This document shows, in pieces, positions 37,734 through 63,537 of a stretch of DNA of 64,000 nt. The number at the start of each line of letters is the position of its first letter. Position 1 is the first letter of the stretch. The DNA comes from Phymorhynchus buccinoides (taxonomy: Eukaryota; Mollusca; Gastropoda; Neogastropoda; Raphitomidae), in NCBI GenBank assembly GCA_017654935.2, contig CM065682.1, forward strand, positions 32,812,463 through 32,876,462, read 5' to 3'. The translations under genes were made by a program, and so were the position numbers. The notes beneath the pieces are model-generated. The model ran no database searches. It was not told the origin of the DNA and was given only the letters and a program-made list of their open reading frames with translations.

Positions 37734-37835
37734 TCATGTTGACAGCAGCTTTGCCACATTGGCGGCTCCCTGGTTCTGGATAAAGGTTTCATGCTCCCCC
37801 TCCACCATGTCCACCCTCACTTTGCCCGAACACAC
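37734..37835 (-). CDS. FASN: FAS exon 18: end of thioesterase and stop
   Basis: It encodes [19 protein letters not shown], then [14 protein letters not shown] and TGA at 37,734-37,736. The His in EGEHETF is the catalytic His of the thioesterase. Acceptor CACCAG. No edge repeat was found. Confidence 0.94.
   Translation of the reverse strand: MCSGKVRVDMVEGEHETFIQNQGAANVAKLLST

Positions 37836-63537: not shown

Follow-up and report, generated by a model that had tools for sequence, protein, structure and literature searches.

Tandem copies of exon edges at the splice junctions of a fatty acid synthase gene

Arrays of exon edges along the gene

The locus described here raises the question of how the introns of a single gene came to hold tandem copies of the edges of its own exons, splice sites included, and how such a gene can still be read correctly. 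On its minus strand, from 63537 to 37734, the window (the whole stretch of 64,000 nucleotides that was analysed) codes for an animal-type fatty acid synthase (FAS), of which it includes the 1530 C-terminal residues; the 5' part of the gene falls outside the window, which covers the 3' half only. Eighteen exons were assembled from splice motifs into a model resting on splice sites and an open frame, all on the minus strand: exons 1-6 at 63020-63537, 61273-62004, 60036-60226, 58365-58513, 56770-57071 and 55001-55358; exons 7-12 at 53717-53839, 52637-52860, 51867-52068, 50682-50833, 48967-49213 and 47064-47312; and exons 13-18 at 45904-46069, 45018-45259, 41331-41449, 40645-40911, 38253-38504 and 37734-37835. 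All 17 introns run from GT to AG, and joining the exons at these real sites yields an intact protein, whose frame of 1530 aa is open throughout and has a single stop at its end.

Residues 200-1527 of this protein align to mammalian FAS (PDB chain 2vz8, 1274 bits), the top score among the PDB chains compared, a set that holds no cephalochordate sequence; matches to 6fn6 ('Fatty acid synthase 1, isoform A', 814 bits) and to a polyketide synthase (9cq1, 763 bits) are weaker and extend over shorter stretches. We take 2vz8 to be the pig enzyme and 6fn6 that of a fly. Pfam domains follow one another in the order FAS_pseudo-KR, ADH_zinc_N (zinc-dehydrogenase, the enoyl reductase), KR, PP-binding (the carrier) and Thioesterase. 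An internally repetitive, Q/N/P-rich stretch lies in exon 1 (63200-63400, minus strand), outside the part aligned to mammalian FAS, and is possibly an in-frame repeat within an exon. GC content is 58% in FAS exons against 38% in unique FAS intron, a step at exon boundaries that could bear on why boundaries get duplicated.

Tandem Repeats Finder reports long arrays all along 38461-60118. When the exons alone were compared by BLAST with the minus strand, extra copies were found for 12 of the 18 (exons 3, 4, 5, 6, 8, 9, 10, 11, 13, 14, 16 and 17), every one of them on the gene's strand and within an adjacent intron. The preliminary description of this DNA had counted 13 affected exons out of 18; these twelve stand, and the thirteenth, exon 7, was dropped, no copy of it being found either by exon-only BLAST or by a more sensitive search with flanks. 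A self-comparison of the window, blind to the exons and reporting pairs at offsets of 25-700, of at least 30 bp and at least 75% identity after a low-complexity filter, gave 21 repeat regions, 15 in FAS and 6 elsewhere (four of the latter with offsets of 248-691 bp). Exactly one exon boundary is held by each of 14 of the 15 FAS arrays, seven on the acceptor side and seven on the donor side, and at the thresholds of this comparison no FAS array lies inside an exon, across a whole exon or across two boundaries. The remaining one, a minisatellite with a unit of ~31 bp at 40385-40590 in intron 16, is the sole array found in the gene by self-comparison that holds no exon edge. Finally, a uniform scan, in which each internal boundary was compared with as much as 1500 bp of the intron next to it, detected exon-edge copies at 17 of 34 internal FAS boundaries, against 0/34 in a control with reversed introns; these are the 14 boundaries with arrays and three with weak single or decayed copies, namely the 3' edges of exons 11, 16 and 17.

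All of these arrays lie on the minus strand and are given here in the order of the exons. The array of the exon 3 3' edge (58907-60121) repeats 86 exon and 64 intron bp in 7 extra copies, the last two decayed, and the exon 4 3' edge (57931-58459) is represented by two truncated copies, of which the second has a GT donor. Both edges of exon 5 are duplicated, the 5' edge (57004-57848; 36 intron and 68 exon bp) in 7 extra copies, of which the outer two lack AG, and the 3' edge (55677-56851; 82 exon and 39 intron bp) in 8 extra copies that could be aligned and one partial. Two extra copies of the exon 6 5' edge (28 intron and 117 exon bp) are found at 55242-55685, and intron 5 (1411 bases) falls wholly within this array and that of the exon 5 3' edge. 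The exon 6 3' edge (54862-55102) has one older copy, its exon part 81% identical. Next come the exon 8 5' edge (52760-53557; 38 intron and 101 exon bp; 5 extra copies), the exon 9 3' edge (51252-51947; 79 exon and 50 intron bp; 4 extra copies, the nearest in two pieces) and the exon 10 5' edge (50760-51050; 54 intron and 74 exon bp), with one copy whose exon part is 98.6% identical and whose AG is lost, and one partial copy. The exon 11 5' edge (49150-50211; 80 intron and 64 exon bp) is repeated in an array of 7 extra copies that resemble it less the farther away they lie. Exon 13 is again duplicated at both ends (5' edge, 45990-46618, 29 intron and 80 exon bp, 5 extra copies; 3' edge, 45570-45943, 40 exon and 84 intron bp, 2 extra copies). 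The array of the exon 14 3' edge (42211-45063; 46 exon and 49 intron bp) gave 30 BLAST hits, of which 29 were aligned with GT in 29/29, and fills ~2.8 kb of the 3568-bp intron 14, and that of the exon 17 5' edge (38461-39592; 101 intron and 44 exon bp) holds 7 extra copies. As for the weaker cases, a single decayed copy of the exon 11 3' edge, with a GT donor, lies ~0.7 kb into intron 11 (48218-48262), the exon 16 3' edge region recurs in intron 16 as a decayed pair of copies (39651-39826), and BLAST and the uniform scan point to a candidate weak single or decayed copy of the exon 17 3' edge.

The edges named in the preliminary description, 5' (exons 5, 6, 8, 10, 11, 13 and 17) and 3' (exons 3, 5, 9, 13 and 14), were all recovered, and the 3' edges of exons 4 and 6 (arrays) and 11, 16 and 17 (weak) are added to them. 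Its ranges were close to those measured: each of the 13 aligned boundaries has between 1 and 29 extra copies (1 to ~30 had been claimed), and a unit contains 40-117 bp of exon (~35-120 bp had been claimed). Its statement that every unit spans a boundary is correct for full units, all of which do so, but some outer copies are decayed or truncated (e.g. those of exons 4, 10 and 16) and the array at 40385-40590 is free of any boundary. Altogether, the 14 boundary arrays span 11195 of the 21209 FAS intron bases (53%), in agreement with the local and recurrent duplication of edges by which the introns had been proposed to be enlarged.

Unit anatomy and the excess of arrays at boundaries

With unit ends read from BLAST ends and repeat periods, the units measure 95-150 bp (mean 129, s.d. 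16), of which 28-101 bp are intron, and in 14/14 of them the unit extends no less than 28 bp to either side of the junction. Breakpoints straddling the junction in this way have a P of 0.002 if breakpoints are uniform and units that destroy the splice signal are excluded; the mean centring of the breakpoints has a P of 0.010, or of 0.036 with the splice-signal filter. Array-bearing introns are shorter outside their arrays (P 0.06), of which no claim is made.

The longest match between the real units of the 14 boundaries does not exceed 15 bp in any comparison, and each unit is therefore home-made. This weighs on the idea that an introner-like or other mobile element has been landing at splice sites, as its presence in many introns of one gene, on donor and acceptor sides, might suggest. 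The 14 boundaries share no sequence of more than 15 bp that such an element could have brought, each unit is the edge of its own exon and all copies are on the gene's strand, so that we give this explanation practically no credence. Nor does long homology seem to have seeded the duplications. Twelve junctions between copies were printed, and at the seven that are in register (the five out of register were left out) 0 (six junctions) or 2 (one junction) matching bases continue beyond the unit on the readable side; there is thus no long flanking homology at these seven, and this candidate seed was rejected for them.

The number of arrays that should hold a boundary by chance was obtained by placing the unit length of each array randomly in the gene and removing exon-only placements, the unit of the boundary-free array (40385-40590) being set to 31 bp. 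With arrays collapsed to one unit, 4.7 of 15 are expected where 14 are observed (P ~5e-7), and on the present, uncollapsed gene 2.6 of 15 (P 2e-10), in a calculation made post hoc in FAS, the gene that prompted the question, and with one comparison gene. The preliminary description had named a genome-wide overlap of minisatellites with exon edges at chance level as what would speak against it; tried within FAS, the overlap is well above that level.

A distribution of this kind might still be produced by selection acting on duplications that are seeded anywhere, without boundary bias, the exonic ones being purged. Such filtering would explain why self-comparison at its thresholds finds no array inside or across a whole exon, and the seven 5' arrays all retain at least 28 bp of intron, as acceptor signals require. 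However, with introns collapsed, random seeding predicts that ~69% of events should be intron-only, whereas 14/15 arrays hold a boundary, and it permits exon-side breakpoints near the junction, whereas none is nearer than 40 bp. Removal of exonic duplications by selection accounts for their absence within exons, but leaves the scarcity of intron-only arrays unexplained. Such arrays occur at one per 9.8 kb of unique intron in FAS, and the rest of the window holds 6 repeat regions per 37.7 kb. As intron-only arrays are thus near background, no denser than repeats are outside FAS, and boundary arrays far above it, we consider random seeding followed by selection unlikely and lean, from this one gene, towards a bias in origin, with the seeding of duplications directed to splice junctions.

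The comparison gene, PICK1, is separated from the 3' end of FAS by ~9 kb and lies on the plus strand (18907-28945), where 8 coding segments match a human PICK1 probe at 56-90% identity and encode PDZ and Arfaptin-like domains. No boundary array is found in it by self-comparison, yet it had to be discarded as a clean negative control, since a weak hit turned out to be decayed edge copies. Two of these, AG included, derive from the 5' edge of the last matched exon (start near 28781) and lie at 28669-28742 on the plus strand. The uniform scan finds copies at 1/14 PICK1 boundaries and at 0/14 with reversed introns, these boundaries being lightly trimmed tblastn ends whose splice sites were checked only in part. 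The process is therefore not confined to FAS, and the earlier view that it is tied to this gene is not supported. In post hoc Fisher tests, FAS differs from PICK1 with P values of 0.004 (14/34 vs 0/14 boundaries) and 0.009 (16/34 vs 1/14), the second of which rests on 16 FAS boundaries, the uniform scan having later given 17/34. PICK1 also carries related TG-rich tandem repeats of 109 and 123 bp in an intron (20945-21244 and 22156-22417), with no exon edge in them. Retroelement-like fragments occupy 8275-9627 on the minus strand, with a Pfam RVT_1 match at 8879-9421, and no match to Rfam was found within the window at gathering scores.

Fate of the copies and choice of the splice site

At the 13 aligned boundaries there are 85 extra copies, 79 of which keep their AG or GT; left out of the alignment were the exon 14 partial copy at 42281-42241, the partial copies of the exon 5 3' edge and of exon 10, and exon 4, which has no full copy. 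Identity between the nearest copy and the real edge is lowest at the exon 6 3' edge (0.70) and at exon 9 (0.77) and amounts to 0.89-0.98 at the other aligned boundaries. In 8 of the 11 arrays with at least two copies (those of exons 3, 5 5', 5 3', 8, 9, 11, 13 5' and 17) the outermost copy is down to 0.60-0.84 identity, and outward decay is absent at exons 6 5' (0.89), 13 3' (0.96) and 14 (0.92). The 29 copies of exon 14 are closer to one another (0.962) than to the real edge (0.905); in the other arrays with at least two copies, except 13 3', mutual likeness is not above likeness to the real edge. Concerted evolution is therefore clear in exon 14 only, and elsewhere a recent origin would look like concerted evolution.

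In 12 arrays (the exon 4 3' and exon 6 3' edges being left out of this test), the consensus of the copies departs from the real exon at 12/293, 12/295 and 24/292 sites at codon positions 1, 2 and 3, respectively, and from the real introns at 31/527 sites, with 25 of the 48 exonic changes being non-synonymous. This pattern fits a real edge that is under selection and copies that, as protein, are under none.

Selection could nevertheless act on the copies as splice sites, if they were extra donors and acceptors kept to buffer splice-site mutations or to tune isoforms or expression. Besides the retention of AG or GT in most copies, mismatches are fewer at splice positions (6/167 cells at splice dinucleotides and 4/199 at donor positions 3-6) than elsewhere in introns (378/3465), and the conservation of splice signals within units has a mean percentile of 0.69 over 13 boundaries. 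A minisatellite of Caenorhabditis elegans has also been linked to multiple splicing decisions (PMC4039745). The copies are not independent, however, most donor cells coming from exon 14, and selection on their splice signals is for this reason not claimed. Moreover, when each of 79 decoys was taken in turn as the splice site, the outcome was a premature stop every time and never an open frame; this test included 77 decoys that keep AG or GT and omitted 6 of the 85 copies (57849, 57695, 39518, 58806, 50961 and 54864, of which 39518 and 54864 keep theirs). The copies also appear free of protein constraint, and AG or GT has been lost in some outermost ones (exons 3, 5 5' and 9). A functional role for the decoys is thus improbable. 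The better keeping of their splice signals is not what pure neutral decay would predict, and conversion from the real copy could be responsible.

The preliminary description had seen in the arrays a process that keeps the reading frame. The frame is indeed intact, because the copies lie in introns, but no special mechanism is needed to keep it: since not one decoy gives an open frame, correct site choice and selection account for it. As to how the choice is made, in 14/14 arrays no decoy lies nearer to the exon body than the real site, whose use makes the exon as short and the intron as long as possible. Of the 29 decoys of the exon 14 donor, 28 match it at all nine bases, so that local site strength alone cannot decide.

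Amphioxus 'mirages' and the possible origin of the arrays

No named system was said in the preliminary description to do this at so many boundaries, but one has been published under the name of 'mirages' (PMC3087553, PMC3902484). The term refers to arrays spanning intron-exon boundaries in the amphioxus globin genes BflGb6 and BflGb9, in which regular splicing is undisturbed (PMC3087553); further amphioxus cases are Adh3 (Canestro et al. 2002, cited in PMC3087553) and lancelet PGBD5, added in a paper that also cites troponin C (PMC3902484). Boundary-spanning arrays are thus a published, little-studied kind of repeat and, judged by their sequence, those of FAS belong to it. In both, the unit spans an exon-intron boundary (14/15 arrays here), most copies beginning or finishing at the exon edge; 5' and 3' boundaries are both duplicated; AG or GT is found in many, not all, units (79/85 here); and the units at the edge of a cluster are more diverged (8/11 arrays here, those of exons 6 5', 13 3' and 14 excepted). 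Mirages are further characterised by concerted evolution of their inner units, which in FAS is clear at exon 14 only, and by somatic instability or copy numbers that differ between haplotypes.

The amphioxus globins have one boundary affected per gene, with 6 and 3 copies in two BflGb6 haplotypes as reported in PMC3087553, whereas FAS has arrays at 14 boundaries, up to 29 extra copies and one intron wholly covered. Units of Adh3 are 10-72 bp long (as cited in PMC3087553), those of FAS being larger (95-150 bp). PGBD5 is similar to FAS in having imperfect units of 60 and 108 bp over the splice sites of exons 3 and 4 of one gene (PMC3902484), although with two arrays instead of 14; splicing is believed to be unaffected, and copy number varies between assemblies.

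This last point bears on the reliability of our own sequence, as repeats could have been collapsed or falsely expanded, or haplotypes merged, during assembly. In lancelets the copy numbers of PGBD5 depend on the assembly (2 vs 7 and 3 vs 6; PMC3902484) and one amphioxus globin array was aberrantly assembled (PMC3087553), so that FAS copy numbers may be off. As an explanation for the arrays themselves, an artefact is nonetheless highly improbable: near-identical copies are what one would expect of false joins, whereas in FAS the units of the 14 boundaries are unrelated and the identity of copies to the real edge ranges from 0.60 to 0.98, and the authors of the PGBD5 study re-sequenced against assembly error (PMC3902484).

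More distant parallels exist. Introns of amphioxus VCBP3 resemble those of FAS in containing exons, complete or in part and in some cases with canonical splice sites, beside the matching coding exon; the data are not shown there, and the passages of PMC2632668 on this gene describe no tandem arrays. Human genes of segmental duplications have tandem repeats at exon-intron boundaries that can alter introns, but these are ~30-bp units repeated four times on average, were detected by comparison of recent paralogs and lie for half of them within coding exons (PMC2812944). For amphioxus huntingtin, tandem repeats are mentioned, none at boundaries in the relevant passages of PMC2206037, and the work on Branchiostoma belcheri VLDLR, in the portions of PMC10339998 concerned, was set aside as having no bearing on boundary arrays. 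The AG/GT tandem duplication model of Rogers 1989 (cited in PMC3087553) likewise involves duplication across a splice site. There the duplication is proposed to create a new intron, whereas in FAS existing introns are enlarged and no new one is shown; the position of the arrays, within introns and beside the copied edge, and the intron sequence included in their units fit the growth of existing introns, as far as sequence can tell. Among the literature matches listed, there is no genome-wide survey of mirages and no FAS case, and the array density, boundary statistics and straddling breakpoints reported here go beyond the published cases as these matches present them.

The best explanation, and in our view a probable one, is that the FAS arrays are minisatellites of the mirage kind that arose by junction-straddling duplication, were amplified and are tolerated by virtue of exon definition. 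Initially, a DNA break or two nicks within ~100-150 bp of a junction would be filled in and end-joined, leaving a tandem duplicate that straddles the junction. Small tandem duplications are products of induced breaks that have been filled in and end-joined (PMC8355091), and it is from that work, together with the old junctions of the arrays, that we infer an end-joining origin. Because the copy still joined to the exon body continues to serve as the functional edge, the array would always come to lie on the intron side. Slippage, unequal exchange or conversion may then amplify the two-copy seed to up to ~30 copies, with outer copies tending to decay; the outward decay of most arrays suggests ordinary minisatellite turnover. 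The spliceosome, for its part, would pair the two sites that give the shortest exon, so that dozens of decoys could be tolerated: the real site being innermost in every array, such a rule would always pick it. Splicing of FAS is presumably normal and governed by exon definition, and the net result would be introns that grow out of exon-edge DNA.

A stronger version of this explanation, which we put forward only tentatively, as less likely than not, is that in this genome a mutational process is aimed at junctions as such. DNA within ~100-150 bp around active boundaries would suffer breaks and be rejoined by end joining into tandem copies at a rate far exceeding that of the remaining intron DNA, possibly in connection with transcription, splicing, nucleosome position or the step in GC content (58% vs 38%); the introns of heavily affected genes would have been rebuilt mostly from exon edges, and accurate expression would rely on strict exon definition.

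A single gene with 14 array-bearing boundaries and three weaker ones offers an internal replication that is missing from the published cases of one or two boundaries, as they are described in the sources cited above. If its host is not a lancelet, mirages would be extended to another lineage and the finding would gain in weight. If, furthermore, the density seen in FAS holds genome-wide, the genome would constitute a natural test of how the spliceosome chooses one site among dozens alike, and a route to studying the growth of introns and the possibility that exon edges are hot spots of mutation.
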